A stretch of 31,972 nucleotides of DNA, taken from the IMG/VR virus record IMGVR_UViG_3300035661_000230, positions 1-31,972 of that record. One strand, 5' to 3'. Made by a program: the position numbers and the translations under genes. Position 1 is the stretch's first letter, and each line of letters begins with the position of its first letter. This DNA is from a virus. Of the stretch, positions 358 through 26,080 are shown in pieces. Under the pieces are notes generated by a model, which made no database searches, was not told the origin of the DNA, and saw only the letters and a program-made list of their open reading frames with translations.

Positions 358-395
358 GTACTGTGTAATAAGAACATATTTCAAAAAAATATGAT

Positions 396-489
396 ATATT
401 GATGAATTCTTTAAAATAATTATTGAATATTGATGAATTCTTTAAAATAATTATTGAATATTGATGAATTCTTTAAAAGAATTTATGTA
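396..489. repeat. Three tandem 31-bp repeats plus a partial fourth
   Basis: Units start at 396, 427 and 458 with exact 31-base spacing, each beginning ATATTGATGAATTC. A fragment ATATTGA at 490 begins a fourth. The first two units are identical. The third diverges after TTTAAAA and forms a perfect palindrome, AATTCTTT-A-AAAGAATT. The array lies directly upstream of the scaffold gene, followed by a T-run and a possible -10 (TACAAT near 515). It could be a set of operator sites, iterons or a promoter-upstream element. There are no unique spacers, so it is not a CRISPR array. Confidence 0.8.
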
Positions 490-546
490 ATATTGATTTT
501 TTTTTTAAAAAACAGTACAATAATAAAAAATAAAGAGGTATAAAAA

Positions 547-2668: not shown

Positions 2669-2734
2669 AACTCCCAAAAAAACACTATCTATAAAAACTA
2701 TGTCAAAATGCTTCAAATAAAAAGAGGTACTACT

Positions 2735-3256
2735 ATGGCGTTCGTAAAAAACAATAATTCAGATATAAATACTGAAAAGCTAATAATGGGTGTTGATCAA
2801 TCTTTCAGTTCAACTGGTATATGTATAACTAATTTAAGTAATGAGATATTATTTGCTGCATCTGTAAAAACAGACTCAAAAGATTTTCTTGAAGATAGAA
2901 TAGCTTTTATTGCAAAGAATATAATAGCTATTGCAAAGCTATATGAGGTTAAACAAGTAGTTATTGAGGGATTAAGCTATTCAAGCATATATAGTAGCGC
3001 CAGACAGCTTGCTGGACTATTCTATGTAATTTGTCATGAACTAAAAAGGAATAAGATCAAATATAGCATTATTCCTCCAAATTCTTTAAAATTAAAAAGT
3101 CAAGGATCCGGGAAAGCAACTAAACCAGATATGAAAAACTGTATTGATGATGAAATCATAAAAGAATTATCTAAAGTTTCAGGAATAAAAGATATAGCAA
3201 AACGATTCGAAGATATTGTAGATGCTTATCATTTATCAATGTATTATAAAATTTGA
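2735..3256 (+). CDS. RuvC-like Holliday junction resolvase/nuclease, 173 aa
   Basis: Predicted RNase H-fold endonuclease of the RuvC type, which cuts branched DNA. D21 lies in MGVDQSFSSTG (first strand), E78 in VVIEGLS, and D160/D163 in FEDIVDAYHL, matching the acidic set of the family. SGKATKPDM (126-134) corresponds to the RuvC G-x-A-x-K segment. The length is typical. The ATG at 2735, not the one at 2708, follows AAAGAGGT and is chosen. It lies between the capsid and connector genes rather than with replication genes, so it may act late, resolving branches before packaging as phage resolvases do. That role is inferred. Confidence 0.85.
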   Translation: MAFVKNNNSDINTEKLIMGVDQSFSSTGICITNLSNEILFAASVKTDSKDFLEDRIAFIAKNIIAIAKLYEVKQVVIEGLSYSSIYSSARQLAGLFYVICHELKRNKIKYSIIPPNSLKLKSQGSGKATKPDMKNCIDDEIIKELSKVSGIKDIAKRFEDIVDAYHLSMYYKI

Positions 3257-6706: not shown

Positions 6707-6765
6707 CCTTCTCTATAACTTTCTTTTTTTTATCACTTTATTACTTCTAAAAACTATATCTAATC

Positions 6766-7132
6766 AATCATTAAATATTTAAAGCATGTTGCAGATTTCA
6801 GTTACTATAATTATTACGGTAACAGTACGGTAACACTTACGGTAACACCTTAAAATCCCAAGATATAGGGATTTGCTATTAAAAATATACTCTATGTTAC
6901 TCTATTACTCTAAAATATATATATAGGATGATAATACATAGTGATATGATGTATATGTTTCCATCCGGACTTGGAAAATTACGGTAACAGTAACAGACAC
7001 CTTATAAAGCCCAATATTCAGGGATTTGGTCTGTTACCGTAAGCTATTGATTTACGGTAACAGATGACCAAGTCTACCACATTCTTTAAATATTTAATGA
7101 TTTATTAGATATTTACGGTAACAAAGAAAATA
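6766..7132 (+). ncRNA. Structured duplicated non-coding element, copy 1
   Basis: The gene-free region between the tube terminator and 7203 holds this element. Outer arms AATCATTAAATATTTAAAG (6766-6784) and CTTTAAATATTTAATGATT (7084-7102) are perfect 19-bp inverted repeats, extended imperfectly inward. Inside are three direct ACGGTAACA boxes (6815-6846), the hairpin AAATCCC/GGGATTT (6853-6874), a GACTTGG (6968-6974)/CCAAGTC (7068-7074) stem, and within it TCTGTTACCGTAA/TTACGGTAACAGA (7030-7042/7052-7064). Another ACGGTAACA lies at 6981 and one at 7114. Bases 6967-7132 match 16453-16618 at 161 of 166 positions without gaps. The type 'ncRNA' is a best guess; an operator array or origin is equally possible. 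Confidence 0.6.
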
Positions 7133-7161
7133 AATCAAAACATTATATATTATGTAAAAAA

Positions 7162-7194
7162 CCTCTTATAACAATACATAAAATAAAAAAGAGG
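7162..7194 (+). promoter_or_regulatory. Hairpin that could mask the ribosome site of the 60-aa gene
   Basis: CCTCTT (7162-7167) is complementary to AAGAGG (7189-7194), the ribosome-binding site of the gene at 7203. Pairing across a 21-base A-rich loop would block initiation. The complement occurs just downstream of the structured element and has no counterpart after copy 2. Confidence 0.35.
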
Positions 7195-7202
7195 ATAAAA
7201 AG

Positions 7203-7385
7203 ATGGAAGATTTAATTTTAAGTATATTGGAGTCAATAAAAACAAAGTTTATGTCACTTGGACATTCAGATGATAAAGAGTTAACACTTTTAACAATGGA
7301 CTTTTTCGATAATAATATTAGAGCAGACTCTGTATCAATTATGCTAAAATCATATGAAGAGTCAATCTCTCTTATAATAGGTTAA
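7203..7385 (+). CDS. Small protein of unknown function, 60 aa
   Basis: Not recognised. It follows AAAGAGGATAAAA and starts MEDLILSILESIK; mostly helical and acidic, no membrane segment, no cysteines. It is the first gene after structured element copy 1 and is followed after four bases by another small gene, then by the tail chaperones, so it may be a tail-assembly accessory or a regulator of this late operon. The ribosome site supports its being translated. Confidence 0.6.
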   Translation: MEDLILSILESIKTKFMSLGHSDDKELTLLTMDFFDNNIRADSVSIMLKSYEESISLIIG

Positions 7386-7389
7386 CATA

Positions 7390-7590
7390 ATGAGATACCA
7401 ATATCCAAGCAGTGAATATATGCTAAAATTACTTGATAAAGATAATGTTTCAAACCTTGAATTATATATGATGTCACAGTCAAGTGATTTAGATGTATCA
7501 GTTAAGGCAATAAAACATAAAAAGTCACCAACATTATGTTTAGGTAATAAAATAACAATTTCAGGTAGTTATTTACTTGATTTATTATAA
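7390..7590 (+). CDS. Small protein of unknown function, 66 aa
   Basis: Not recognised. It starts MRYQYPSSEYMLKLL shortly after the previous stop. A short helical N-terminus leads to a basic middle (VKAIKHKKSPT) and a hydrophobic end. There is only a weak ribosome site (ATAGGTTAAC inside the previous gene's end), so it is probably translated by coupling. Its position directly ahead of the tail chaperones suggests a tail role, without direct evidence. Confidence 0.55.
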   Translation: MRYQYPSSEYMLKLLDKDNVSNLELYMMSQSSDLDVSVKAIKHKKSPTLCLGNKITISGSYLLDLL

Positions 7591-7605
7591 AAAAAGTTGT
7601 ACAAT
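7577..7605 (+). promoter_or_regulatory. Promoter before tail chaperone gene
   Basis: TTGATT (7577-7582), 17 bases, TACAAT (7600-7605). The -35 lies inside the end of the preceding ORF, and AATGAGGTATAAAA, the next gene's ribosome site, follows. Confidence 0.6.
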
Positions 7606-7633
7606 AATGTTAATTATAAAATGAGGTATAAAA

Positions 7634-7999
7634 ATGAAATTACGATCAACAGCAAAAATAGTAACAGTTAATGAAAAAGATCTTGGAATGAAGGGAGAAA
7701 AGTTTTCTTTCACTGTAAAAGTTTTAACATTCAAAGAATCAATGAGTATAATGAATCAAACGACTAATGATGACGGTAAAGAGGATGTTATGCAATTCGC
7801 AGAGGAAGTATTCACTCAATCAGTAATTGCATGGGATAATATTATTGGAGAGTCATATGCTGAAGATGGATCAGATATAGAACAAATTCTTGATTGTACA
7901 GATGAAAACAAAAGAATTATATTTAATTTTAATCCAGATTTCTGTAAGGAAGTTATAAATAAAGCTTCAGAGAAGATATCAAAGGATAAAAAAAAATAG
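7634..7999 (+). CDS. Tail assembly chaperone, short form (G-like), 121 aa
   Basis: Tail chaperones of the lambda G/GT type coat the tape measure protein before tube polymerisation. The start MKLRSTAKIVTVNEKD and the following FTVKVLTFKESMSIMNQ match the general N-terminal pattern of such proteins. The gene ends in nine A residues and an in-frame TAG, and an open frame continues in -1, the arrangement of a programmed frameshift. It lies immediately upstream of the tape measure gene, as expected. Ribosome site ATGAGGTATAAAA. Confidence 0.82.
   Translation: MKLRSTAKIVTVNEKDLGMKGEKFSFTVKVLTFKESMSIMNQTTNDDGKEDVMQFAEEVFTQSVIAWDNIIGESYAEDGSDIEQILDCTDENKRIIFNFNPDFCKEVINKASEKISKDKKK
7990..7996 (+). 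other. -1 ribosomal frameshift slip site A AAA AAA
   Basis: The heptamer is in the correct phase (zero-frame codons 7991-7993 and 7994-7996 are both AAA), followed at once by TAG at 7997. Slipping back one base lets reading continue ATA GCA AAA into the 122-codon frame ending at 8364. Two Lys tRNAs on AAA AAA are the classic bacterial slip context. Confidence 0.8.
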
Positions 8000-8364
8000 C
8001 AAAATATGTTAACTGGCTTGCATTCTCAAGTGATGTATGCAAAGCTTGTAGGTTAGCCCCTCTACACAAAAAAAATGGCACTCCTTGTGAAGTTGCCTAT
8101 GATAAAATAAAAGACTCTAATAGAGACCTTTATGAGCTCGTAGGTGATAACTTATACGAGTGCATACACAAAATCCCCGACATATCAAAACCTCAATATA
8201 TGATAATCTCATTAATAGTTAAATGTATTAGTTTTAAGGACATGAATGGAAATGTTGACATAACAGCTACACTTTCTTATTTAAGCTTATATTTAGATGA
8301 AGCGGAAACAGAGATGGCAATTGAAATAATAATAGATATTAATAATAAAATGAGAAAATCATAA
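7996..8364 (+). CDS. T extension of the tail chaperone (GT form by -1 frameshift)
   Basis: The -1 frame is open from the slip site to TAA at 8362-8364 and lacks a convincing start codon near its beginning, so it is best read as the T part of a fusion of about 243 residues. The translated start is IAKYVNWLAFSSDVCKACR. Four Cys lie in its first half (CKAC, PCE, YEC) and its carboxyl half is helical and acidic. T domains bind the tape measure or tube subunits and keep it soluble. The frame has no stop over 122 codons in an A+T-rich genome, which by itself supports coding. Confidence 0.8.
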   Translation: MAKYVNWLAFSSDVCKACRLAPLHKKNGTPCEVAYDKIKDSNRDLYELVGDNLYECIHKIPDISKPQYMIISLIVKCISFKDMNGNVDITATLSYLSLYLDEAETEMAIEIIIDINNKMRKS

Positions 8365-8377
8365 AAAATATCTATGA

Positions 8378-8383
8378 TATAAT
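8378..8383 (+). promoter_or_regulatory. Possible -10 element before tape measure gene
   Basis: TATAAT preceded by TATGA with no good -35. The next gene's ribosome site CTCGAGGTATAA follows. An extra promoter for the tape measure gene is possible. Confidence 0.4.
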
Positions 8384-8412
8384 ATGAAAAAATATAGCTC
8401 GAGGTATAATTT

Positions 8413-11400
8413 ATGAAATTTGGAATCGATATTGAACTTAATGAGAAAGGTAGAAGATTATCTGACGTTGAATCAAACTTAAAATCACTTGGAAATAATG
8501 TTGATATTGCTAATAAGAATTTAGCTATTGCTACCGAAAATTTCAATAAATTAAGCGAAGCTGCAGCAATTGCTGGTGAGAAAGCTAAACAAATGGGTTC
8601 ATCAGGAGCGGAAGGAGCAAATGATGCAGCTATAGCCTATGAGAAAGCTGCAGATGAAGCTACAAAAGCTGGTCAGGCTATGGCTGAAGCTGGTGTAAAA
8701 GCAAAAAAGGCGGCCGCTGATCATGAGTTATTAGGTGTAGCTAACGATAAAAACAGAGAATCTATGGGATCATTAATTTCTGTAATAGGACAAGCCGCAT
8801 CTGCTTATATTGGTTTTAGTGTAATATTAGGACAATTCAAATCATCAATAACATCTGCCGGTAATATGGAAGGTATGAAAATAGGTATTTCGGCGCTTAT
8901 AGCATCAAACTCTGCAAATGTTGACTCACTTGGTAATTCTATAAGTGCAATGGAAAAGTTTAATATGGCCCAAAATGATGCTACAAGGGTTATGGGTTTG
9001 CTTAGAAAAGCAAATATTGAAACTGCGGCTACTTTACCACAATTAGCTGAAGGTTTCCAAAGTGCTCTTGGACCTGCACAAAGGGTTGGGTTTACACTTG
9101 ACCAGACAGTTAAATATGTTACTGGTATGACACAAGCTGCGGCTGCTTTAAATATACCTATGAATCAACTTAGCCAGGAAATGAGATCTGTTTTTGAGGG
9201 TGATATGTCTAAGGACTCTCGAATAAATAGTACCATTACAAAAATGACAACAGCAACGATTGAACAACATAGAGTTGCTGGTGATTTATTTAAATTTCTT
9301 ATGGATAAATTAAAAGACTTTGACGCTGCTGGTAAAGCTACAATGAAAAGCTGGGCTGGTGTTACGTCTGATTTATCAGATAGTTGGACTGAGTTTAAGG
9401 TTAATTTAGTTGAGACATCAGGAGTATTTCAATTAATAAAAGATGGATTATCAGGTATATCAGATGTAATAAAAAATAATAATAATGAATATGCAGTAAC
9501 TAATGAAATAGTAAAAACAATTGTAGTTGCATTAGGAACATTAGCAACAGCTATAACAGTAGCTAAATTAGCACAATTAGGATTTAATTCTGCTGTTTTA
9601 AAAAATCCATATATTCTTGGAATAACTGCAGCTGTTGCTGGATTTACTGCAATGAGTTCAGTTATTGACTCAGTAAGAAAGAAAAAAGATGATTTTTTTG
9701 CTACTAATTCAAATAAGGAATCTGCTAATTTTATAGGAAAATTTAAAAATTCATTAGATGGTAAAGATGCTACACAACAAGTATCTTTAATAAATGAAAG
9801 AATGAAAGCTTTAAAATCTGAACAATTATTGGTTGCTCAAAAATATAAAGACTCTTCATTTTTTAATAAATCACAAAATGATCAGCTTGGACAACAAAAC
9901 GCAACTATTAAAAAAACATATGATGAATTATCAAAACTAAAATCAGCATATAAAGAAACAGCCAAAGGATCAGGTGTTTTTGTTAAAACTGGTGTATTAG
10001 TTACAGATACTAAAGATAGTGATTATGCTAATAAACAATCAAAACTTAAAACAGACGCACAATATTTAGAAGATATTGGTAAGAAATATGAGTCTGAAAG
10101 ACTTCTTTTAAGTCATAAGATAAATGAGATGAGAAAAAATGGAATTGAGGAACTTAGAATTGCCGAAGTTTCAAAATATGGTTTTAAAAAGATAGATGAT
10201 GAAGAATTAGAAGATAAAAAAAGTCATATTGATAAAATAAAATCTGCACGAGATAAAGCAAATAGAGATGCTTTAAAAGATAAAAAGGAATCATTACAAT
10301 CAAAAATAGAGTACTATACTAAAACTGGAGATTTAAGGAAAGCTGATGAATACAAACTTAAATTAAATTATCTTGAACTTTTAAATACTCATAAATTAAA
10401 AGGAGCTGAACTCGCAAATTATCTTAAATCTGGAAATGCTGAGATAGATAAAAAAGAAGAAGAAAGAAATAAGAAAAAAATAAAAGATTTAGCAAAAGCT
10501 GAAGATGACAAATTAAAACTTCAATTGAAATATGCAGAAGATACAGCAGATATTGAAAAAGCATCATCTATTAAAAAGAGTATTGCCGCAAATGATATAA
10601 ATTCAAAGGATTACTCTCCTGATGAAAAAATACGTATGATCGCAGCTGCTAATAATAAAATTGACGAGGAAACATCAAAATCTATTGCAAAAATATCAGC
10701 ATCTTATGCTCAAGCTCTAACAGTATATGAAGATTTCTATAAAAGTGTAAAAGATTATGAAAACCTATTGATAGTAGGAACAGCGAAAATAAATAATGAA
10801 GTAGACTCACTGGATCTACTCGATGAACAAAAAATAGCTTTAAAAACAATTCGTATCGATGAATTTAGCAAAGCAGTCAAAAACCTTGAGTCAGAAGATG
10901 TTAATAAGACATTAAATTCTCAATTAAAATATTTTGAAGAAATAAAAGATTTCGCAAGTGAAGCAACAGTTAAAATTAAACTTTATTATGAATCATTAAA
11001 AAATGCTGGATATGATAAATCAAGTAATACAGGATATAGCGACTCTCAAAAAGCAGAGATGGTAAATGCTGAAATAATTAGAATTAATGCAGAGGCACAA
11101 GATAAAATAGATGAGAAGTCTTTAGCTACACTTAAGGATAAGATAAAATATCTTGAATTAACAAAACAATATAGTGAGGCTTTACTATTAGATGCTCAAG
11201 TATTTGATATAGAAAATAGAAAGTCTACTTTGAATCAAAAGGAACTTACTGAAATAAAACTTAATGATCAAGAAAAAATTGCAGATGGTTATAACAAAAT
11301 CAAGATAGCTGAATTAGAAGCAAGCCAATCATTTTCAGATGTCTTTAAAGCATTTATGATAAAACAAAAGTCAGAGTTAGAAAATTATGCAAGCTATGCA

Positions 11401-13020
11401 AAAGAAATTCTCGGATCAGTTGAAAGCGCATTAAATAAAGGATATACAGATTTTTTTGATTCAACAAGTAAAAAATTCAAAGACCTAAAAGAACTTGGAA
11501 AAAGTGTTTTACAAGATGTATTAAAAGATATTCAAGCAATGGCTATAAAAGCATTATCAAAACAAACAATGCAATTATTTTCAGGAATAACTGGACAAGC
11601 AGATAAACCAGTTTCTATTGACTCATCTATTGTAGCTTTAGACAATGCTTCAGTAGCCGCAACAAAAGCCGCAGCAGCAGCAACAGACGCAGCAACTGCA
11701 GCGACTAATGTAGTAGCAAAAGTAGCTGAAAAAGGTGGTGTTGTAGCTCCATTGAATACTAATAATACAGATGTAAAAGCTAATAATGAAGTATTATCGG
11801 CAGCAACAGATGTAGCAACATCAGCTAATAAAGCAGCGACAGCCGCAACAGATGCCGCAACAGCAGCTACAAAATTATCAATTTCTAAAAGTGATGTATT
11901 AACAAATGATACCGGTGCAAAAATAGTACCTATTACTTCTAATGATTTAGATATACAAGAAACAAAAGCGGCTAACTTGAATGCTAATTTAATAACAACT
12001 ACAATTGATAGTAGTAGTTTAAGTTTAGGTGAAAAGCTTAGTGCAGCTTTTAAAGAAGCAATAGATGATCTCAAAAAAACTATGATGATGATTGTATCTA
12101 AAATGGGATCAGGGAAAAGTAAAAATTTATGGGATGTATCTTCAAAACAAACATCTAATGCTTGGGATTACTCATCTAAAGATATTGGCCAAACCTCAAC
12201 AACAGGAGAAAGTCAATCTAATGCATCTGATCAGTCAACGACTACGTTCCAAGATGCAGCAAATAACGCAAATGTAGCTGATTACGCTTTTAATAATGCT
12301 ACACAGGATAATACATCAGCAATAGAAAAAAATACAACAGAGGTATTATCAAGTACAGATGCATCGTCAAGTTGGACAGAAAGTGTTAGTCAATGGTCAT
12401 CTGGATTAGGAGGATGGGCATCTGGGCTTATGTCTACAGTATCAGGATGGTTGGGTTCTTTTACATCATATGTAGGTCAAGGATTTAGTCAATTGATTAG
12501 TTCATTAGCAGGAAAACTATCAGAATGGGCTACTAATATTATGACAAAAATAACAGGATCTTCAAAAGCTGGTGGTATGCTTGGACAAGTAGTACAAATG
12601 GGAATTCAGTATATAACAGGAGGAGGAGCATTTGCAAATGGAGGTGTTTTTCAAGGAGGATCATTACAAAAATTCGCTACTGGAACTGTAATAACATCTC
12701 CAACATATTTTGGTATGTCTTCAAATCAGACTGGTTTAATGGGTGAAGCTGGCCCGGAAGCTATTATGCCTCTACAAAGAGGTAGTAATGGAAAATTGGG
12801 TATTACTATGCATAGTAGTGATTCAATTGCACGTCAAATTGGAAGTATAATAAATATCCATAATTATACTGGGCATAATATCAATACAACAAAAAATCCT
12901 GACGGATCTACTGATATTGATATTGGTAAGATAGATAAGATGTTAGCAGCTCGTATTACATCTGGTCGTTCAATAATGGATAAAGTTACAGCAAACAAAT
13001 ATGCAATAAATAAGAGGTAA
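8413..13020 (+). CDS. Tail tape measure protein, 1535 aa
   Basis: The longest gene in the window, placed after the G/GT pair. It sets tail length and is ejected at infection. The N-terminus is a coiled coil. Hydrophobic helices occur at ~120-142 and ~370-392, the second within an Ala-rich patch (VALGTLATAITVAKLAQ). The centre (~430-1030) is Lys/Glu-rich helix with four similar helical-hairpin units starting near residues 629, 702, 836 and 907 (K-I/L-x-Y...A pattern). Two Ala/Thr runs (~1076-1102 and ~1130-1155) repeat TAATDAATAAT. A Trp-rich stretch (~1235-1380) precedes the typical carboxyl end GLMGEAGPEAIMPLQRG (~1442). At ~0.15 nm per residue a tail near 230 nm is expected. Confidence 0.95.
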   Translation: MKFGIDIELNEKGRRLSDVESNLKSLGNNVDIANKNLAIATENFNKLSEAAAIAGEKAKQMGSSGAEGANDAAIAYEKAADEATKAGQAMAEAGVKAKKAAADHELLGVANDKNRESMGSLISVIGQAASAYIGFSVILGQFKSSITSAGNMEGMKIGISALIASNSANVDSLGNSISAMEKFNMAQNDATRVMGLLRKANIETAATLPQLAEGFQSALGPAQRVGFTLDQTVKYVTGMTQAAAALNIPMNQLSQEMRSVFEGDMSKDSRINSTITKMTTATIEQHRVAGDLFKFLMDKLKDFDAAGKATMKSWAGVTSDLSDSWTEFKVNLVETSGVFQLIKDGLSGISDVIKNNNNEYAVTNEIVKTIVVALGTLATAITVAKLAQLGFNSAVLKNPYILGITAAVAGFTAMSSVIDSVRKKKDDFFATNSNKESANFIGKFKNSLDGKDATQQVSLINERMKALKSEQLLVAQKYKDSSFFNKSQNDQLGQQNATIKKTYDELSKLKSAYKETAKGSGVFVKTGVLVTDTKDSDYANKQSKLKTDAQYLEDIGKKYESERLLLSHKINEMRKNGIEELRIAEVSKYGFKKIDDEELEDKKSHIDKIKSARDKANRDALKDKKESLQSKIEYYTKTGDLRKADEYKLKLNYLELLNTHKLKGAELANYLKSGNAEIDKKEEERNKKKIKDLAKAEDDKLKLQLKYAEDTADIEKASSIKKSIAANDINSKDYSPDEKIRMIAAANNKIDEETSKSIAKISASYAQALTVYEDFYKSVKDYENLLIVGTAKINNEVDSLDLLDEQKIALKTIRIDEFSKAVKNLESEDVNKTLNSQLKYFEEIKDFASEATVKIKLYYESLKNAGYDKSSNTGYSDSQKAEMVNAEIIRINAEAQDKIDEKSLATLKDKIKYLELTKQYSEALLLDAQVFDIENRKSTLNQKELTEIKLNDQEKIADGYNKIKIAELEASQSFSDVFKAFMIKQKSELENYASYAKEILGSVESALNKGYTDFFDSTSKKFKDLKELGKSVLQDVLKDIQAMAIKALSKQTMQLFSGITGQADKPVSIDSSIVALDNASVAATKAAAAATDAATAATNVVAKVAEKGGVVAPLNTNNTDVKANNEVLSAATDVATSANKAATAATDAATAATKLSISKSDVLTNDTGAKIVPITSNDLDIQETKAANLNANLITTTIDSSSLSLGEKLSAAFKEAIDDLKKTMMMIVSKMGSGKSKNLWDVSSKQTSNAWDYSSKDIGQTSTTGESQSNASDQSTTTFQDAANNANVADYAFNNATQDNTSAIEKNTTEVLSSTDASSSWTESVSQWSSGLGGWASGLMSTVSGWLGSFTSYVGQGFSQLISSLAGKLSEWATNIMTKITGSSKAGGMLGQVVQMGIQYITGGGAFANGGVFQGGSLQKFATGTVITSPTYFGMSSNQTGLMGEAGPEAIMPLQRGSNGKLGITMHSSDSIARQIGSIINIHNYTGHNINTTKNPDGSTDIDIGKIDKMLAARITSGRSIMDKVTANKYAINKR

Positions 13021-13024
13021 TTAA

Positions 13025-13519
13025 ATGTTAAGTGAAGAATTAAAAAAGAATTTTTTAGGATCAAGCAGAGAGAGATTAATTGAAACATTAGAAATAAGTC
13101 ACTCAAGTGGTTTACATTACTATTTGTGTAAATTTCCTGAAAATTTAAATTTAAAAATTGAAGACGGAACAACTCAATTGTTTACTCCGTCTAATTTTAT
13201 TGTTGATCTCCCGGAATATTCAGAAAACGGAATCTTATCTATGAATATTGGTTTTGCAACTGTAGGCTTTCAATATACAAAGGAAATAGAAAATATTATT
13301 AGAACATCAAACGAAAAGATACAGGTTAAGTATAGATTTTATATGGAAGGCGCATATGGATACCCACAAACTGAAAGTCCATTTTTAATACATGTTAGCG
13401 GGATAAATATTTCTAATAAAACTTTATCAATTACCGGGACACTACTTACATCTATTCAGAAAAAAGTCCCAAATAAATTATATTCAATCGAAAGATTTAG
13501 ATCATTAAAGTACCTATGA
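13025..13519 (+). CDS. Minor tail protein, DUF1833-like, 164 aa
   Basis: Starts five bases after the tape measure stop with the ribosome site AAGAGGTAATTAA inside the end of that gene. The arrangement tape measure, DUF1833-like, NlpC/P60, J-like hub is standard in many siphoviruses, and the beta-rich sequence (GLHYYLCKFPENL, then VKYRFYMEGAY) fits the DUF1833 pattern, a distal tail or tail-tip scaffold. No catalytic motif. Its end overlaps the next gene by four bases. Identification is chiefly by context. Confidence 0.6.
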   Translation: MLSEELKKNFLGSSRERLIETLEISHSSGLHYYLCKFPENLNLKIEDGTTQLFTPSNFIVDLPEYSENGILSMNIGFATVGFQYTKEIENIIRTSNEKIQVKYRFYMEGAYGYPQTESPFLIHVSGINISNKTLSITGTLLTSIQKKVPNKLYSIERFRSLKYL

Positions 13520-13923
13520 TAGACTTTAATGATTATATCGGTATAGAATATGCAGATGATGCCTTTATTAAGAATGATAGAGGAGCTGTAAATTGTAATG
13601 GTTTAATATGTGAGCTATCAGATACATATAGAGAAACAATATCTACTATGAAGTCAATGCTTAATTTAAGATCAACAATAAAAGGATTAAAAAGTTTTTA
13701 TGAATTAATAGAGGAAGGGTTAGAACAATCAGGTGATATAATAATCTTTGTAAGGAGAACAAGCAAGATATATAGTCATATTGGAATGATAACAGATAAA
13801 GGATCGTTTATACATGCAGATACTGGACCATATGGAGTAGTAATCGATCGTATAGCTAAAATGTCTTTTTTTAGTTATAATTACTTAATTTTTAGAGAGG
13901 TTGATATACATCATGAAATATAA
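13516..13923 (+). CDS. NlpC/P60-like tail peptidase, 135 aa
   Basis: Tail-tip cysteine peptidase that may open peptidoglycan on DNA entry. A Cys in a VNCNGLICEL context (C27) matches the catalytic Cys of NlpC/P60 proteins (usually DCwGL). SHIGMIT (His ~93) matches the catalytic His strand, and SFIHAD (~103-108) follows at the usual distance for the third polar position. The product is short for the family, and the Asp before Cys is replaced by Asn, so activity is uncertain. Coupled to the upstream gene by ATGA overlap and overlapping the hub gene by 11 bases. Confidence 0.72.
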   Translation: MIDFNDYIGIEYADDAFIKNDRGAVNCNGLICELSDTYRETISTMKSMLNLRSTIKGLKSFYELIEEGLEQSGDIIIFVRRTSKIYSHIGMITDKGSFIHADTGPYGVVIDRIAKMSFFSYNYLIFREVDIHHEI

Positions 13924-16240
13924 GGAAATTGATATACTCGGAACTGAATTAGATTATAAAATAGGAAATTTTTCTGTAAATATAGCAGAAGATAATAGTG
14001 ATTATGATACATATAACATAGAGCCACAGCCTCTATATATTTTTTTAACTTCAAAATTTCCTATTGGATTTGATAAAGACAAAGTTGTATTATTAAATAA
14101 AACTGAAATAAAACTGGATGATTTCGATACTTTTATAACTAATGATGATGTAGTTACAGTTTTATCTCTACCAAAGGAGCCTTTTAGTTCGTTTTTAATA
14201 GGGATGGTAATTAGCCTTGTAGTTGCATATTTGATTAAAATATTATTCCCTCCTCATAAGCCAGATACACTTCCTAATAGTCACTCTGTATATAATGCAA
14301 ATATAAACCAAATTCAGGCAAATATAGGAGAGCCAATAGGAATACAATATGGCCAAATTAGAAGTTATACAAAATTAATAGCTCCTATTTATAAAATATT
14401 AATAGAAGAGCAAGAATATACCATAATTCATACATGTTTAGGTGTTGGTGACTATGATATAGTGAATGCGTTTATTGGAGATACAAATATCAATATGTTT
14501 GAGGCTCCGGCATTATCTTACTATAAACAAGGTACTGGATCTAAATCAGGATATCTTGACTCATTTAGAAATATAGCGTCTACAAATTATGGATTGGATA
14601 CAAGAATGATATCACTCATAACACATACAATACCAGAAGCTGCAGGTACTATTCCAAAAGTTGGAAAATTAACATATAACCAAAGAATTCCTGTAAGCCA
14701 ATATACTTATGTAGATGGTGCAACAAATATAACTATATACGGTGTTGTATATAATTTTCAAGCAATAACGTTCTCAATTCCTAATACTGGAATGGGTGAT
14801 ATTGAGCCAATGGTTACAATAAAAATGTATGACGGAGCGGGATCGTCAGGTTATTATGTTGTGAACCCAGTTAATACCATCGTTGATAGAATAATGGTTA
14901 ATTATGCGTTCAATGGAGGAATTTTTAGCGTAGATGATAAGGGAAATGAGGAGTCAGATACAGCAAAATTCCAATTCAATATATCTGAAATAGATGATAA
15001 CGATGTATTAACAGGTTATAGCTATACAGAAAATCATAACTTCCAACGAGCAACAAAGAGCAAATTTTCAAGTTCAGTTTTAGTACCTGTTAAACCAGGT
15101 CGCTATAAAGTTAAAATTGTTAGGTTGGATACTCCAAGTGCGAGAGGTACAAAAGAGGGAACTATCGATGGTATTTTTGGATTTGAATCAGATCAGGGAC
15201 TTACTGATGTTGACAGTTTTACATTAATTTCTTATATTGTTAAAACAAATGGACAAATAAGCGGACAATCAGGTACTGCTGTTAATATTGATACTATACG
15301 TGTTGGAGGTAATTATTCTACATTAAGAGATTTAGTATTAGATCTATGGACAAATATTGACTATGGAATGGGAATGAGCCTTGAATACCTCGAAATAAGA
15401 GGACAGCTTAACAATGAAATTTCTTATGTTATAGATAAAAGAGAAAATGTTTTTGATACAATAAATTCAGTTTTAAAATCATTTGGATATGTAATATATC
15501 CTTACTTAAATAAATTTATAATTAAGCTGGAAACATTAATGCCTTATAGATCTATGGTCTTTTCAAGTAAGAACACAAAGGAAATAACTTTTACTTATAA
15601 TTTGCAAGCAGATGATGATTTAGTGAAAGGAGTTAAGGGTAAATACCTTCCAAAAGGAGAAGCAAACCTATCAACTTTTTACTTTCCAGATGATCCGTCA
15701 ATAACTGATTTTGATGAGACAATTTTGCCAGGTGTTAATAATATAGTAGATGCACAAAAAATATGTCAATTTCTTTATAATAAGAAAACAAAAATATTAA
15801 AAACTTGTTCTATTAAAACAGATATAGAGGGGTTAATTCCTGAATTATATTCAAGGGTTGGTGTGGCTACTGAATATTTAGAAAACTATATTACATGTGA
15901 GGGTTATCAGTTAACTACTACTACAATTCAATTAAGCCAGTATGTTACAATAGATCCTTCCGAGGATAACTCAATTGTTATATACTCATCAGATGGAGTG
16001 GCATATGATAAAATGCAAGTTATATCGTCTGTACCATATACCAATACATTAACAATAATTGGTGGTGATACTATAAACTTCACAAATTCTTTTTATGTGA
16101 ATATTGGACTTACAACAAAGGTAATTGAAGATTATGTTATTACATCTATTGCTCCGGGAAAAAATGATGATGATATAAATCGTTCTATGGAAGTTGCTAT
16201 CACTTTGATGGAATACGACGAGTCTGTGTATGTTTATTAG
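13913..16240 (+). CDS. Central tail hub/tip protein, lambda J-like, 775 aa
   Basis: The frame is open from 13901, where only a TTG is available. The ATG at 13913 is preferred, with AGAGAGG at 13893-13899. A hydrophobic helix at about residues 93-113 (SSFLIGMVISLVVAYLIKIL) precedes a segment typical of J-like hubs, with NQIQANIGEPIGIQYGQIR near 135. The middle is beta-rich with cell-puncturing-like modules (GRYKVKIVRLDTPSARGTKEG). The end lacks the long FN3-repeat tail of lambda J, so receptor binding is probably done by other proteins (see 27687-29618). Last gene of the tail operon. Confidence 0.82.
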   Translation: MKYKEIDILGTELDYKIGNFSVNIAEDNSDYDTYNIEPQPLYIFLTSKFPIGFDKDKVVLLNKTEIKLDDFDTFITNDDVVTVLSLPKEPFSSFLIGMVISLVVAYLIKILFPPHKPDTLPNSHSVYNANINQIQANIGEPIGIQYGQIRSYTKLIAPIYKILIEEQEYTIIHTCLGVGDYDIVNAFIGDTNINMFEAPALSYYKQGTGSKSGYLDSFRNIASTNYGLDTRMISLITHTIPEAAGTIPKVGKLTYNQRIPVSQYTYVDGATNITIYGVVYNFQAITFSIPNTGMGDIEPMVTIKMYDGAGSSGYYVVNPVNTIVDRIMVNYAFNGGIFSVDDKGNEESDTAKFQFNISEIDDNDVLTGYSYTENHNFQRATKSKFSSSVLVPVKPGRYKVKIVRLDTPSARGTKEGTIDGIFGFESDQGLTDVDSFTLISYIVKTNGQISGQSGTAVNIDTIRVGGNYSTLRDLVLDLWTNIDYGMGMSLEYLEIRGQLNNEISYVIDKRENVFDTINSVLKSFGYVIYPYLNKFIIKLETLMPYRSMVFSSKNTKEITFTYNLQADDDLVKGVKGKYLPKGEANLSTFYFPDDPSITDFDETILPGVNNIVDAQKICQFLYNKKTKILKTCSIKTDIEGLIPELYSRVGVATEYLENYITCEGYQLTTTTIQLSQYVTIDPSEDNSIVIYSSDGVAYDKMQVISSVPYTNTLTIIGGDTINFTNSFYVNIGLTTKVIEDYVITSIAPGKNDDDINRSMEVAITLMEYDESVYVY

Positions 16241-16270
16241 TTTATTACTAAAAGAGTATTAGTATCCATT

Positions 16271-16618
16271 TTAATTTTTAAAGCATGTTGCAGAATTAAA
16301 TTACAGTAACATTACGGTAACATTAGAGTAACACTCTCAAAGCCCAAGATATAGGGCTTTTATATACTAAATATACTATATGTTACTCTATTACTCTAAT
16401 ATTTATATATTAGATGATAACACATAGTAATATGATATATATGTTTTCATCAGGACTTGGAAAATTACGGTAACAGTAACAGACACCTTATAAAGCCCAA
16501 TATTCAGGGATTTGCTCTGTTACCGTAAGCTATTGATTTACGGTAACAGATGACCAAGTCTACAACATACTTTAAATATTTAATGATTTATTGGATTTTT
16601 ACGGTAACAAAGAAAATA
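16271..16618 (+). ncRNA. Structured duplicated non-coding element, copy 2
   Basis: The 440-base gap between the hub gene and 16682 holds the second copy, same orientation as copy 1. It has the GCATGTTGCAGA left arm (16283-16294), degenerate TAAC boxes (16302-16334), the hairpin AAAGCCC/GGGCTTT (16339-16360), TCTAATAT/ATATTAGA (16395-16414), GACTTGG/CCAAGTC (16454-16460/16554-16560), TCTGTTACCGTAA/TTACGGTAACAGA (16516-16528/16538-16550), and a last ACGGTAACA at 16600. The right half is 161/166 identical to copy 1 with no gaps; the left half has drifted, keeping stems. The remainder of the gap holds only a promoter. Confidence 0.6.
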
Positions 16619-16647
16619 ATAGATATATGTTTTTTTTAACCATTAGA

Positions 16648-16681: not shown

Positions 16682-17206
16682 ATGGACAAATACTCAAACA
16701 TATCATGTTTATTAAATGGTGATAGAAACTGTGATTTAGATATTAAATATTTTGACTCAAGAAATAGTGACGGATCATTTATAACTGAAATACTTAACTT
16801 AAAACTTGATTATATAAGAAAAAATATATATAAGAATATTGATTTTCATATTTTAGTTGCTGTTTCATCACTGTATGGATTTTATACAAATGAAGATGTT
16901 ATCATTAAAACAAAAAATGAAATAGTTAAGATTGTTAAGAAATTCTTAAGTGATAATAATGAGAATTATGAGCAAGGACTTATAAGATCTTTACAATATA
17001 TTCTATCAAAGAATATATCAAAGTTTAATGATGAAGAAAATGAGTTATTAATAAGTGATTTTATTACATTTAAAGATAATTTTTTTATTGAAGAGATTTA
17101 TATGTTGCTTGACCTTAACTTTGGCATAAAGATCCCAGTAGAAAATAAAATAAATACTTACTATTTAAATCTAAAAAATAGAGATGGAGATAGTTTTTTT
17201 AAATAA
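16682..17206 (+). CDS. Protein of unknown function, 174 aa
   Basis: Not recognised. Starts MDKYSNISCLLNGDRN after a strong ribosome site. Mostly helical and acidic, with a Tyr/Ile/Asn-rich composition; two Cys near the start (C9, C17), no membrane segment or signal peptide. First gene after structured element copy 2, in the same relative place as the 60-aa gene after copy 1, and followed by spanin genes with a separate -10. It may be part of the lysis operon or a morphogenetic factor. Nothing in the sequence decides. Confidence 0.55.
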   Translation: MDKYSNISCLLNGDRNCDLDIKYFDSRNSDGSFITEILNLKLDYIRKNIYKNIDFHILVAVSSLYGFYTNEDVIIKTKNEIVKIVKKFLSDNNENYEQGLIRSLQYILSKNISKFNDEENELLISDFITFKDNFFIEEIYMLLDLNFGIKIPVENKINTYYLNLKNRDGDSFFK

Positions 17207-17244
17207 AAAGTGATATAATATTCTAAAACATGAGGTAAAAAAAA

Positions 17245-17613
17245 ATGAACGTAATAAAAACATTCTTAGCTCCGTATATAAATTATATATACTTGACAAT
17301 TGCTGTATCATTGTCTATGGCTTTCATAATAATGTGGCTCAATATAAATAGATTAACAAATGAGTTAAAAACTTCTAATGATAATCTGATATCAGCAAAA
17401 ACAGAAAATGTATCACTTAAAAATGATATTAAAAATATAAAGCAAAATTCAGAAGATCAACAAAAGATTATTGCATCTGCATGTGATGATACAATATCAG
17501 CAATGAAGAGAAATCAAACAAAAACTAAAAAGGTTTTAGATAACGCTTTATCATCTGAAGACATAAGTGATCTATTCGTTGTTTTAAGAGCTCAGGAGGC
17601 ATCAAATGATTAA
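17245..17613 (+). CDS. Inner-membrane spanin (Rz-like), 122 aa
   Basis: Spanins fuse the inner and outer membranes in the last step of Gram-negative lysis. A single N-terminal membrane segment (residues ~15-33, LTIAVSLSMAFIIMWLNI) is followed by a coiled coil (~37-75, NRLTNELKTSNDNLISAK onward) and a periplasmic tail, the organisation of an i-spanin. It overlaps the lipoprotein gene by eight bases, the usual spanin arrangement. Ribosome site ATGAGGTAAAAAAA. Confidence 0.8.
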   Translation: MNVIKTFLAPYINYIYLTIAVSLSMAFIIMWLNINRLTNELKTSNDNLISAKTENVSLKNDIKNIKQNSEDQQKIIASACDDTISAMKRNQTKTKKVLDNALSSEDISDLFVVLRAQEASND

Positions 17614-22213: not shown

Positions 22214-22332
22214 ACATTCTAAGATTATTAAGGTAATCACCCTGCACCCGAATTATTAAACGGTTTACAATTAAAATTATACAGCAAATATTAAAACCAC
22301 CTTAAAAAATGGAGTTAATATGCAAAAGAATT
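22191..22332 (-). ncRNA. Candidate TnpB guide RNA (reRNA/omega RNA) region
   Basis: Immediately 3' of tnpB. TTAAGGT (22305-22299) pairs with ACCTTAA (22234-22228). GGTTT (22298-22294), continuous with it, pairs with AAACC (22266-22262), so two stems can stack. A third hairpin GCCGG/CCGGC (22209-22191) follows, then A-rich DNA. Structured RNA at the 3' end of tnpB is what the family predicts, with the guide after the last hairpin. The end of the RNA and the guide are not identifiable from one sequence. Confidence 0.35.
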
Positions 22333-23655
22333 TTAGTTTAAGTGTTTATAGTCTATTTTCCTTGTTTTAATATTATAAAAATATTGAACCTTGATACCCT
22401 GTCTCGTATGAGCATTGAAAGATAAATATTTATCTAATTTGAAATCATTAAAGCATATTGCAGACAATACTTCTTTCCTTTTTTTATCTGTTTTATATTC
22501 AGAAAAAATGAAGTCTTTTATCCTACTTTTAACTTTACATTGTTCCTTAACCAAATCAATATAAAAAGGTTTTGACATTGCATTTGTTCGATCCTTAACA
22601 TAATAACGTTTAGATAGAATTTGAGATGCACCGTTAACATCAGCGTGAATTTTATATCCCTTTGATGAAACAAAAAGTCCACGCTCTAATCGTATACCTT
22701 CAAAAACGTTTTGATTATTTGGAGCTTCAAAATCTAAAAATGAAGTTTTTGACGTATATGACTCATTAATAAACGAGCACTTAATTCCAAATTTATTAGC
22801 ATATGCGGCTATCTTTCTTTTCAAAGTATGGTACGGTATCATATAGAAGTTATTACAAACACCTTTATCTTTTACCCCATGGAAATCTCCTACAAAAATC
22901 TCTCCAACATTTGAATAGTTGAGATATGAAAATAGACGAGATAGTGCGTTATGGAATACTGTCTTATCAAAATTATTCTTTTTCATTTTTAAAGACTTCA
23001 TTTTAAGAGTATCGTTTTGTAATTGAGCTTTGATATAATCATTATTAAACTTATAATTACTGAACTTCAAAAACTTACCAGATATTATTAATGGCCGAGC
23101 TGACTCTGAATAACATGCTATTAATGTATCAACGCCTAAATCAATACCAGCCTTAAATTGTTTAGTATTCTTTGTTATAATAACATCTTCATATTCATAT
23201 ATAAGATAGAAAGATCCATCGAGTGCATTATGTAGTCTAACCATACGAACACTCTTATTTTTATTAACGAAATTATCAGGGATAATAAACTTCTCAATCC
23301 CATGCTTTAAATTTAATGATAGTATATTCCAGGATATTTCAAAAGATGATCCAAAAAATGCTATGAAGAATAACGAGTCATCGTAGCGACATGATGGTCT
23401 TCTATATGAAGCATCCTTTGCTTGATTTTTACAATAGTTTGTCATATTTATATTGTAGTTACCAACTATTGATCGAGTTATTGATAATCCGAGTTTTAAT
23501 GCATGCTCTGACGTTAAACACACCTTATCTGTATCCTTGAACCTTAAATTGATATCATTACGTCCTGCGTGCCATATCTGGTTGTATAGCTTACGTGCAC
23601 TAACGAATAACTCTGTGAAATTTTTACCTTTTATATTTTGTTTAAAGTAGAACAT
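22333..23655 (-). CDS. tnpB: TnpB-like RNA-guided nuclease, 440 aa
   Basis: IS200/IS605 OrfB/TnpB-type RuvC nuclease. RuvC-I FKAGIDLGVDTL (D172), RuvC-II IFVGDFHGVKDKG (D257; Gly stands where canonical TnpB has Glu, as in the GDL-type subgroup), then ESYTSKTSFLD (298-308) and RuvC-III IHADVNGA (D339). The zinc-ribbon cysteines are absent. An added tail of ~90 residues follows 350. Starts at ATG 23655 after AAGAGGTTCTAAA, the same ribosome site as phage genes. No tnpA is present and no transposon ends were found. It sits last in the leftward early block under the block's own promoter type, so it looks like a phage-resident rather than freshly inserted gene. Confidence 0.88.
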   Translation of the reverse strand: MFYFKQNIKGKNFTELFVSARKLYNQIWHAGRNDINLRFKDTDKVCLTSEHALKLGLSITRSIVGNYNINMTNYCKNQAKDASYRRPSCRYDDSLFFIAFFGSSFEISWNILSLNLKHGIEKFIIPDNFVNKNKSVRMVRLHNALDGSFYLIYEYEDVIITKNTKQFKAGIDLGVDTLIACYSESARPLIISGKFLKFSNYKFNNDYIKAQLQNDTLKMKSLKMKKNNFDKTVFHNALSRLFSYLNYSNVGEIFVGDFHGVKDKGVCNNFYMIPYHTLKRKIAAYANKFGIKCSFINESYTSKTSFLDFEAPNNQNVFEGIRLERGLFVSSKGYKIHADVNGASQILSKRYYVKDRTNAMSKPFYIDLVKEQCKVKSRIKDFIFSEYKTDKKRKEVLSAICFNDFKLDKYLSFNAHTRQGIKVQYFYNIKTRKIDYKHLN

Positions 23656-23682
23656 TTTAGAACCTCTTAATTGTTTTATAAC

Positions 23683-23715
23683 ATACTATGTAAGTAGAAG
23701 TTGTTTTTAGGGACT
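23683..23715 (-). promoter_or_regulatory. Leftward promoter of tnpB (AGTCCC-21-TAGTAT)
   Basis: Read leftward: AGTCCC (23715-23710), exactly 21 bases, TAGTAT (23688-23683), ending 27 bases before the ATG. Shares box sequence and spacing with the promoters at 25443 and 26030. Confidence 0.65.
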
Positions 23716-23755
23716 TTTTAATGAAAGAATTTTAAAGAATTTGAAAGTTTATGAA

Positions 23756-23787: not shown

Positions 23788-25311
23788 TTATAAAGTTTTG
23801 ATTGTAGCGATAACCTTAACTTTTAGAAGTTCTCCGCTTATTCTTTTTGAGATAGACTCACCAAATTTTGAAGCGAAAATCTTGGCGATTACTCTGTCAG
23901 TTTTTGAATTATTATCATCAACGAGTAATGTATAAAGACGTCTAAGAGTTTTAATTGATACACAGTCTTGTGCAAATTCGTCAGTTAAACTATCTCTTAT
24001 AACTGAAATGTTTTCAGGTATTGAAAGAATATATGAGTCAGTATATTTTCTTCTATCGTTAATATTTGTTTCGTAGAAAAAATCCATTATTTCTAAAACT
24101 TTATCACATAAAACATCTACATTTTTTGTTTTTATTAACTCAAATAATTTTTCAGATGGGTTTGAAGTTGCTTCTTGTGATCTTATTTTTGCGTCAGTTA
24201 AGAATATTTGCTGTGCTCTCTTTCTATCGTATTCATAAAGAGAAAGAAAATTAATAAACTTATCTAACTCAGCATATACGTTATTACAAAAAGTTGTCTC
24301 ATCTATTGAGAAGTCCTCTGCTGCCATTGCTTTTAATGTTCTACTTTGTGAGAATAAATTAAAACGTCGCTCTGTTGAACTCATTTTTACTGAATCCTCA
24401 TGGTTTGTAGACATTAAAATCATAAAATAATTGTCCTGAGAATAGCTCTTTTTACCTTTTGGGTTTAATAAAAAAGAATTATCAGTTATATACATCTTTA
24501 GTTTTTGCATTGCGCTATCTTTCTTTTTAAAATCACTTGACACTTCATTAAATGATAATAGTAATTTTGATTCTACAATATCATCAAATGTTGATTCGAG
24601 AGTTGATGCCACAGCCTGAACTGAGTATTGCTTACCTATAATCATTTCAAGTAAAGTATATGTAACACCTTTACCAGTACCCTCAATTGAACCAGCATAT
24701 AAGAATGCGGTTGGAATTTTCTTACGAGTTAAAAAGAATGCAGATACATAGTTTATAAAATGGTCTACGGCTAAATCATTATACTCATGAGTATTTTTTA
24801 ACAAACCATAGGTATAAGGACAATCTCTTTTTAACATATCAATTCCAATATAACGTTCTTCAGTTTGTGATCTTATTTCTCTCATCTCAATCAATCTTGA
24901 ATTTTTTCTATTGAATAAATTATAGAAGTGCCCAAAATTATTTGTATATTCTTCTTCATCACTTGATACATTAAAAACAATATTAGTTTTCTTTACATTT
25001 TTAAGTGCAGCCGCAGGATTTTTAAGTTCAATTCCTACATTTTTGAACGCTTCAAAAATTTTATGGGTTGCTCCTTCTTTATTTAGATAGTCAATCTTAT
25101 CTACGCCTTCTCCTGATGATATAGTTACATATGATCCTTGAATATAATCATAAAATAATTTAGTATTAGTAGATATTCTACCATCTCTCATTATTGTTGC
25201 CAAGTTCAAATTAAAAGCATCTCCATGTGTTGTTGTTGGTGTTGCTATCACTGTCTCTGTTGCTATCACTGTTGCTATCTCTGTTTCTACTGTTGTTGTT
25301 GTGTTTTGCAT
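23788..25311 (-). CDS. SF3-type replicative helicase (DUF5906-like), 507 aa
   Basis: Probable replication initiator helicase of the D5-like superfamily 3. ATG 25311 is chosen since AAAGAGGATACAAAA precedes it; the frame extends to 25347. Walker A AGSIEGTGKGVTY (~206-218), Walker B LLLSFNEVSSD (~250-260), motif C FMILMSTNHED (~296-306) and the arginine finger ERRFNLF (~314-320) occur in SF3 order and spacing. The N-terminal 30 residues are Thr/Ala/Val/Glu repeats from a GTTGCTATCACT-type repeat and look like a disordered linker. No primase or polymerase motif is visible, so host enzymes must supply synthesis. Confidence 0.88.
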   Translation of the reverse strand: MQNTTTTVETEIATVIATETVIATPTTTHGDAFNLNLATIMRDGRISTNTKLFYDYIQGSYVTISSGEGVDKIDYLNKEGATHKIFEAFKNVGIELKNPAAALKNVKKTNIVFNVSSDEEEYTNNFGHFYNLFNRKNSRLIEMREIRSQTEERYIGIDMLKRDCPYTYGLLKNTHEYNDLAVDHFINYVSAFFLTRKKIPTAFLYAGSIEGTGKGVTYTLLEMIIGKQYSVQAVASTLESTFDDIVESKLLLSFNEVSSDFKKKDSAMQKLKMYITDNSFLLNPKGKKSYSQDNYFMILMSTNHEDSVKMSSTERRFNLFSQSRTLKAMAAEDFSIDETTFCNNVYAELDKFINFLSLYEYDRKRAQQIFLTDAKIRSQEATSNPSEKLFELIKTKNVDVLCDKVLEIMDFFYETNINDRRKYTDSYILSIPENISVIRDSLTDEFAQDCVSIKTLRRLYTLLVDDNNSKTDRVIAKIFASKFGESISKRISGELLKVKVIATIKTL

Positions 25312-25410
25312 TTTTGTATCCTCTTTTTTTGTTTTAGTTCCTATCAATTACTCAATAAAAACTTTATCAGATCCTTTTTTAAAGCATCCGGTAAAATTTT
25401 CATTCTTAAC

Positions 25411-25443
25411 ATACTATGTACCCATAAATACATTTTGGGGACT
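25411..25443 (-). promoter_or_regulatory. Leftward promoter of helicase (AGTCCC-21-TAGTAT)
   Basis: AGTCCC (25443-25438), 21 bases, TAGTAT (25416-25411) read leftward, ~100 bases before the helicase ATG. A second AGTCCC box at 25495-25490 lies 52 bases upstream of the first without a matching TAGTAT. Confidence 0.65.
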
Positions 25444-25540
25444 TTATATTGATAATTTTATCAATAAAAGATTAATTTATATCATTTTTGGGACTTTTTT
25501 AAAAGAAATCTTAAATAGGTTAAGACTTCTTTTATATTTA

Positions 25541-25966: not shown

Positions 25967-25997
25967 TTTTTTTACCTCTTTTTTATTTTGTTACAAT

Positions 25998-26030
25998 ATA
26001 CTATGAAACTTCAAATACGTTTCAGGGACT
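25998..26030 (-). promoter_or_regulatory. Leftward promoter of 141-aa gene (AGTCCC-21-TAGTAT)
   Basis: AGTCCC (26030-26025), 21 bases, TAGTAT (26003-25998) read leftward. The spacer contains the inverted pair GAAAC/GTTTC (26005-26009/26019-26023). Confidence 0.65.
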
Positions 26031-26053
26031 TTTTTGTTAAATTCTTTTTACAA

Positions 26054-26080
26054 TCTCTTAAAACATCATATTTTAAGAGA
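26054..26080 (-). terminator. Perfect 10-bp hairpin after the 142-aa gene
   Basis: TCTCTTAAAA (26054-26063) pairs with TTTTAAGAGA (26071-26080) across CATCATA, 16 bases past the stop at 26097. There is no long T-run. It also lies just upstream of the next AGTCCC promoter, so transcription may be cut and restarted here. Confidence 0.55.

Follow-up and report, generated by a model that had tools for sequence, protein, structure and literature searches.

Introduction

Here we describe two copies (A and B) of a non-coding element of about 350 bases in the 31,972-nucleotide virus record IMGVR_UViG_3300035661_000230 of IMG/VR (the window, that is, the whole stretch of DNA analysed), which we interpret as probable replication-origin-type sites for the phage's own superfamily 3 (SF3) helicase. 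Several described systems resemble this pair in part. In P4, two separated cis sites, ori and crr, carry the same type of iteron and go with one primase-helicase, a likeness to the window pair; however, the P4 alpha protein joins a Toprim primase to a winged-helix origin-binding domain, and the iteron sequence and layout are unlike those of the window. The put sites of HK022 also occur as two related structured copies per genome, but are only about 70 nt long, belong to early operons, lie downstream of promoters and act as RNA, whereas the window elements lie in the late region, and a promoter follows the element in five of eight copies, all of them in relatives of the window phage.

In staphylococcal pathogenicity islands (SaPIs), the iterons bound by the Rep protein lie immediately 3' of rep, and Cch2 likewise binds repeats that follow its own gene (PMC7581432). 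As in the window, a replicon-encoded SF3 helicase (Rep or PriRep) is combined with short, replicon-specific repeated boxes, and PriRep1 of SaPI5 is the second-best fold match of the window helicase, but the SaPI origin is single and directly downstream of rep, whereas the window has two copies, in the late region and far from the helicase gene. In pRN1, a downstream stem-loop is required and still works when displaced; similar stem-loops occur in phages, and origins of this type have been proposed for phages such as BIP-1 (PMC4234260). The likeness lies in a large fold-back element of a primase/SF3-helicase replicon and, for pRN1, in its function when moved; however, pRN1 has one stem-loop without iterons, in contrast to the box arrays, two half-sites and two copies of the window, and the window helicase has no recognisable prim-pol domain. 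Phage NrS-1 (AB746912) has a homologous helicase domain and an array of AGTGTAAC boxes in both orientations (17062-17377), with a fold-back and a CCC/GGG hairpin; unlike the window elements, this array, the role of which is putative, is single and directly behind the polymerase gene.

In SPP1, a single initiator binds both of two origins separated by 12 kb, with initiation at one and stalling at the other, and its switch to concatemers is aided by recombination proteins and linked to the second site (PMC3485210). Like SPP1 with its oriL and oriR, each of the five phages with the element has two related sites in one siphophage genome, about 12 kb apart in SPP1, where they bind the initiator, and 9.5-12.9 kb apart here (the shorter distance between the copies), where they are putative initiator sites. 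The SPP1 initiator, however, is G38P rather than an SF3 helicase, and SPP1-like replication genes (G38P-type initiator, loader, helicase) were not recognised in Pfam and PHROGs protein scans, with no specific search made for them. A preliminary description of the window, made from the sequence alone, held that no element with this layout had been described; that statement holds up as regards the layout in two copies, but origins of SF3-helicase replicons built as stem-loops or iterons are on record (PMC4234260, PMC7581432).

Two copies of the element in the late region

The window record appears to be complete and circular, with a 127-nt end overlap. Copies A and B point in the same direction: A follows the tail tube gene (ending at 6682) and precedes a late-strand open reading frame starting at 7203, and B follows a tail protein gene (ending at 16240) and precedes one starting at 16682. 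Gapped homology extends over 6729-7133 and 16233-16619 (85% identity); over 297 ungapped nucleotides the identity is 91%, and 6967-7132 and 16453-16618 agree at exactly 161 of 166 positions without a gap. The upstream halves have diverged further, mainly through small indels and substitutions, but retain the boxes and the hairpin. This picture of the two copies agrees with the preliminary description, which had reported the ungapped match of the cores, the more drifted upstream halves with their stems and boxes, and two co-directional copies each placed between the end of a structural operon and a new operon.

The repeated boxes and nested inverted repeats noted there were likewise recovered. 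The box TTACGGTAACA, with at most one mismatch, occurs 13 times in the window, every time within copies A and B (0.48 occurrences expected; 13 were reached in 0 of 100 shuffles). Each copy contains nine GTAACA cores, arranged in the orientation order +++-++-++ in both. Copy A has an outer inverted repeat (6756-6798 / 7070-7112) of 43 nt with 88% complementarity, which is eroded in copy B. The parts of the element are as follows.

6756..7133, + strand: element copy A, whole (self-comparison, repeats and alignment of the copies)
16256..16620, + strand: element copy B, whole (same evidence)
6967..7132, + strand: near-identical 166-nt core of copy A
16453..16618, + strand: near-identical 166-nt core of copy B
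6814..6847, + strand: half 1 of copy A, three direct boxes TTACGGTAACA / GTACGGTAACA / TTACGGTAACA, spacing 11-12 nt
16301..16333, + strand: half 1 of copy B, three direct boxes TTACAGTAACA, TTACGGTAACA, TTAGAGTAACA, spacing 11 nt
6853..6874, no strand: half 1 hairpin of copy A, AAATCCC-AAGATATA-GGGATTT, with a T-A to G-C double change relative to copy B
16339..16360, no strand: half 1 hairpin of copy B, AAAGCCC-AAGATATA-GGGCTTT
6893..6966, no strand: inverted boxes (TGTTAC...) and AT-rich middle of copy A, 75% AT
16379..16452, no strand: inverted boxes and AT-rich middle of copy B, 80% AT
6979..6996 (copy A) and 16465-16482 (copy B), + strand: half 2, two direct boxes TTACGGTAACA-GTAACAG
7030..7064 (copy A) and 16516-16550 (copy B), no strand: facing boxes TCTGTTACCGTAA-N9-TTACGGTAACAGA, a perfect hairpin
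7113..7123 (copy A) and 16599-16609 (copy B), + strand: last direct box, adjoining the downstream genes

Related phages carry pairs of their own

Searches with the large terminase subunit (TerL) yielded four relatives, all metagenomic, with TerL identity of 58-66%: G006 (contig L026, 33.8 kb, with an end overlap), G002 (contig L009, 35.2 kb), and the contigs L025 (11.3 kb) and L008 (10.7 kb). The last two are incomplete and break at the element, and five genomes with the pair are known, the window included. The DNA search for the window's element found nothing convincing in the four relatives. By self-comparison, a distinct pair of long direct repeats came to light in every one of them, and reading these sequences showed the same layout.

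7488-7836 and 17489-17859 of L026: pair of G006
8072-8348 and 20955-21230 of L009: pair of G002
394-730 and 11101 to the end of L025: pair of L025
both contig ends of L008: pair of L008

All five phages have exactly one same-direction pair, which for L025 and L008 refers to the available part of the genome. One copy precedes the spanin-TerS-TerL block in every phage, and the other follows the tail tube gene (window), the RuvC gene (G006, L025) or the tail chaperone gene (G002). The elements are arrays of about 300-380 bases, and their common plan consists of direct boxes, a hairpin of the AAAGCCC-N7/8-GGGCTTT type, inverted boxes, an AT-rich middle, direct boxes, a loop and inverted boxes, and usually closes with a last direct box. 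The boxes themselves differ in every phage (TTACGGTAACA, GTGTAAGA, GTGTAATAG, GCGTTATT and GGGACA/TGTCCC). The two copies of one genome agree at 84-88% over the aligned length, with higher identity in the boxes, and in G006 both halves have been retained and the middle has drifted. Because the boxes are better kept than the rest and lineage-specific, and the G006 halves are retained, this comparison of sequences points to selection or concerted change acting on boxes that a phage-specific factor recognises.

The identical 119-nt ends of L008 are element sequence, so that this contig probably looks circular only through an artefact of assembly; L025 likewise breaks at the element (11101-11308). 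Between the window and G006, the late modules are rearranged, with fibres, lysis and early genes ordered differently relative to TerL and the tail genes.

Beyond these relatives, exact-pattern scans of IMG/VR with the window's boxes retrieved only a pair of unrelated high-GC phages (L006, L007), in which TGTTACCGTAACA palindromes or operators lie around or beside a repressor-like gene. Neither a longer core pattern nor a search with the portal protein gave a match, the DNA search of phage records returned no true copy of the element, and a prophage search of bacterial genomes for the host found none.

Box arrays downstream of helicase genes in cultured phages

The only replication gene recognised in the window phage encodes a helicase that matches the C-terminal region of NrS-1 polymerase both by sequence (PDB 6k9c/6k9e, E 8e-20) and by fold (E 1e-13). 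Of the window's early genes, both complete relatives share this one and a TnpB-like gene and no other.

23788..25347, - strand: stand-alone SF3-type helicase (DUF5906), homologue of the NrS-1 polymerase C-terminal region, proposed box-binding initiator

Clustered 8-mers of mixed orientation were searched for blindly in 225 kb around the helicase gene of 17 cultured phages with this helicase family. Ten clusters were found, and eight of the ten lie in the first 1 kb after the helicase gene, a region comprising 7% of the bases (p = 2e-8, a value that overstates the case because the phages, several of them Casjensviridae, are not independent samples, although the boxes themselves do differ). The eight phages with downstream arrays, each with its own box, are NrS-1, AXY1, SS2019XI, AhaSv, Chi, N137, Enc34 and Mcat6. 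NrS-1 has 11 AGTGTAAC boxes, all of them confined to its array of about 310 nt, which begins 11 nt after the polymerase gene; no two-copy duplication was seen there. The other seven candidate origin arrays, none of which is marked in the records read, are located as follows.

L133, 5543-5793: Chi
L134, 5198-5423: N137
L136, 5148-5418: Enc34
L132, 5573-5895: AhaSv
L138, 4680-4956: Mcat6 (Moraxella)
L127, 9915-10190: AXY1
L128, 10128-10266: SS2019XI

The AXY1 arrangement is nearly that of the window (direct boxes, hairpin, inverted box, then direct boxes, loop and inverted boxes), and most arrays behind helicase genes also fold back strongly. The annotated gene 29 of NrS-1 (hypothetical protein BAN05338.1; AB746912 17055-17456, L113) spans the box array and is unlikely to be a true gene. 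An 8-nt recognition site of NrS-1 polymerase has been reported near the genome centre (PMC7102993); no 8-mer in the template as published has a single copy on each strand with both at the centre, so the site was not placed and is not used as evidence.

A probable duplicated and displaced origin

We consider it fairly probable that the element is a replication-origin-type site of the iteron/stem-loop kind for the SF3 helicase that the phage itself encodes, displaced from the helicase gene and doubled. The boxes and the helicase are linked by association, from which we infer binding of the helicase to the boxes, a start of replication at these sites and different tasks for the two copies. Each copy would offer two half-sites of short initiator-binding boxes (direct boxes, hairpin, inverted boxes) around the AT-rich middle, where the helicase would recognise the boxes, assemble, melt the DNA and load the host replisome. 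At the sequence level the helicase shows no recognisable prim-pol domain, and a DNA polymerase gene was not recognised in the phage, suggesting that host enzymes do most of the synthesis. From its place behind the helicase gene, the array would have reached the late region and undergone duplication. If SPP1 oriL/oriR is taken as a model, theta replication may start at one copy, and initiator bound at the other may stall forks and favour recombination-dependent concatemer formation, for which a resolvase is at hand.

2708..3256, + strand: RuvC-family resolvase (Pfam RuvC), possible partner for a theta-to-concatemer switch

Several observations weigh against this interpretation. In this phage family the arrays are not beside the helicase gene; no box cluster was found near 23788-25347, and both arrays of the window are at least 7 kb away. 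In the cultured set, nine of the 17 phages yielded no array when scanned in this way. The five pairs are all co-directional and among late genes, and a sigma70-type promoter (TTGAC-N17-TATAAT-like) begins 10-19 bp past the last box in five of eight scorable copies (P = 2e-4), features that an origin would not require. The AT content of the middle only slightly exceeds that of the genome (about 70%), and cumulative GC skew is uninformative, tracking gene direction without marking the elements. No separate DNA-binding domain was identified in the helicase, the model of which has a mean predicted local distance difference test score (pLDDT) of 54, with low confidence outside the core.

Alternative explanations

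Given that the copies always run in one direction and that a promoter can adjoin their downstream end, the main rival is a late-promoter control region, in which a phage regulator would use the boxes as operators to silence or activate the promoter just 3' of them, two late operons would be switched together and the hairpins would end the upstream transcript. The copies are nearly always ahead of late-strand genes, and their CCC/GGG hairpins resemble terminators. However, the window's own copies have no clear consensus promoter just 3' of the element; other late promoters, such as those upstream of the capsid gene, are equally strong or stronger without it; some nine boxes in two half-sites, each centred on a hairpin, are more than an operator would need; arrays of the same type stand behind the primase-helicase gene in unrelated phages; and the obvious regulator candidates, two small early proteins of the window, are not conserved. 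We regard such a control region as a serious rival but rather unlikely. A paired origin that doubles as a late-operon switch appears unlikely: the array would have been duplicated, kept alike by concerted evolution and set before two late-operon promoters, and the same helicase-box complex would start or stall replication and time late transcription.

A structured regulatory RNA ahead of the late operons, either a put-like antiterminator, as the preliminary description had proposed, or another cis RNA, would account for the strong folding, which in both copies is far above that of shuffled sequences (RNA z -8.4 and -6.6; DNA z about -6.5 for each copy, where five stretches of the window taken as controls score between -1.2 and +1.0), and for the compensatory T-A to G-C change in the hairpin. 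Yet inverted repeats of protein sites fold equally well. Box sequence is constant whether or not a box has a pairing partner, compensatory changes are almost absent (three double changes among three pairs of copies in three genomes), no Rfam family matches the element credibly, and in the relatives' five copies with a consensus promoter 3' of the element, the element would lie outside the leader of that transcript. Support for a function at the RNA level is weak, and we deem an RNA element very unlikely. Of the three options in that description, replication origin is the best supported, the operator array is retained as just described and the put-like RNA is disfavoured. A packaging or terminase-binding site of the pac/cosB type, suggested by the copy ahead of the spanin-TerS-TerL block and by the NrS-1 array preceding TerS, would not be unique, as every phage has a second copy about 10 kb off, and in Chi some 10 kb separate the array from the terminase genes; we judge it highly improbable. 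Hardly any weight goes to a recently copied miniature inverted-repeat transposable element with long inverted termini: the outer inverted repeat of copy A and the differing places of the second copy among relatives would fit, but the homology is bounded by boxes that lie outside the inverted termini, no target duplication was seen, there are exactly two copies in the same orientation in all five phages, and the DNA search found none in other phage records. Copy number and the Chi arrangement thus conflict with the packaging and mobile-element readings.

Other features of the window and its relatives

A TnpB/Cas12f-like protein adjoins the helicase in four phages (window 22333-23655, - strand; L026 296-1648; L112 10754-11980; L114 4556-5905). 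Its second RuvC catalytic residue is seemingly replaced (Cas12f IENL aligns with VGDF, with G in all four) and the zinc-finger cysteines are missing, so that, judging from the alignment, the protein may be nuclease-dead and TldR-like; the confidence of its fold model is too low for use. A TnpB-like guide matching the elements was considered and rejected, with no informative 10-mer shared. Just downstream of the TnpB-like gene, at about 22215-22290 of the window (- strand), there is a TATAAT box, with similar sequence at the same place in L026 (TGTAAAC.G ... GTGATT ... CTTAA), marking a candidate small or guide RNA.

A minus-strand leader, AAAGTCCC ... CATAGTAT / TATATAGTA, is repeated before most early genes and is probably an early promoter or operator. 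Upstream of a scaffold-like gene, window 379-510 contains 31-nt tandem repeats (TTGATGAATTCTTTAAAATAATTATT).

23679-23739, 25407-25467 and 25994-26054 of the window: early-gene leader
1805, 3686, 3987, 6609 and 6969 of L026: early-gene leader

Implications

If the proposed origin function is correct, a private box array would mark the start of replication in phages with NrS-1-type helicases, placed behind the helicase gene in many cultured phages (among them Chi, Enc34 and Moraxella phage Mcat6) and duplicated in the late region in the lineage described here. The box and helicase pairs of differing specificity allow comparisons by which initiator recognition can be tested, and the two-copy lineage would be a second example, unrelated to SPP1, of a phage with two initiator sites.

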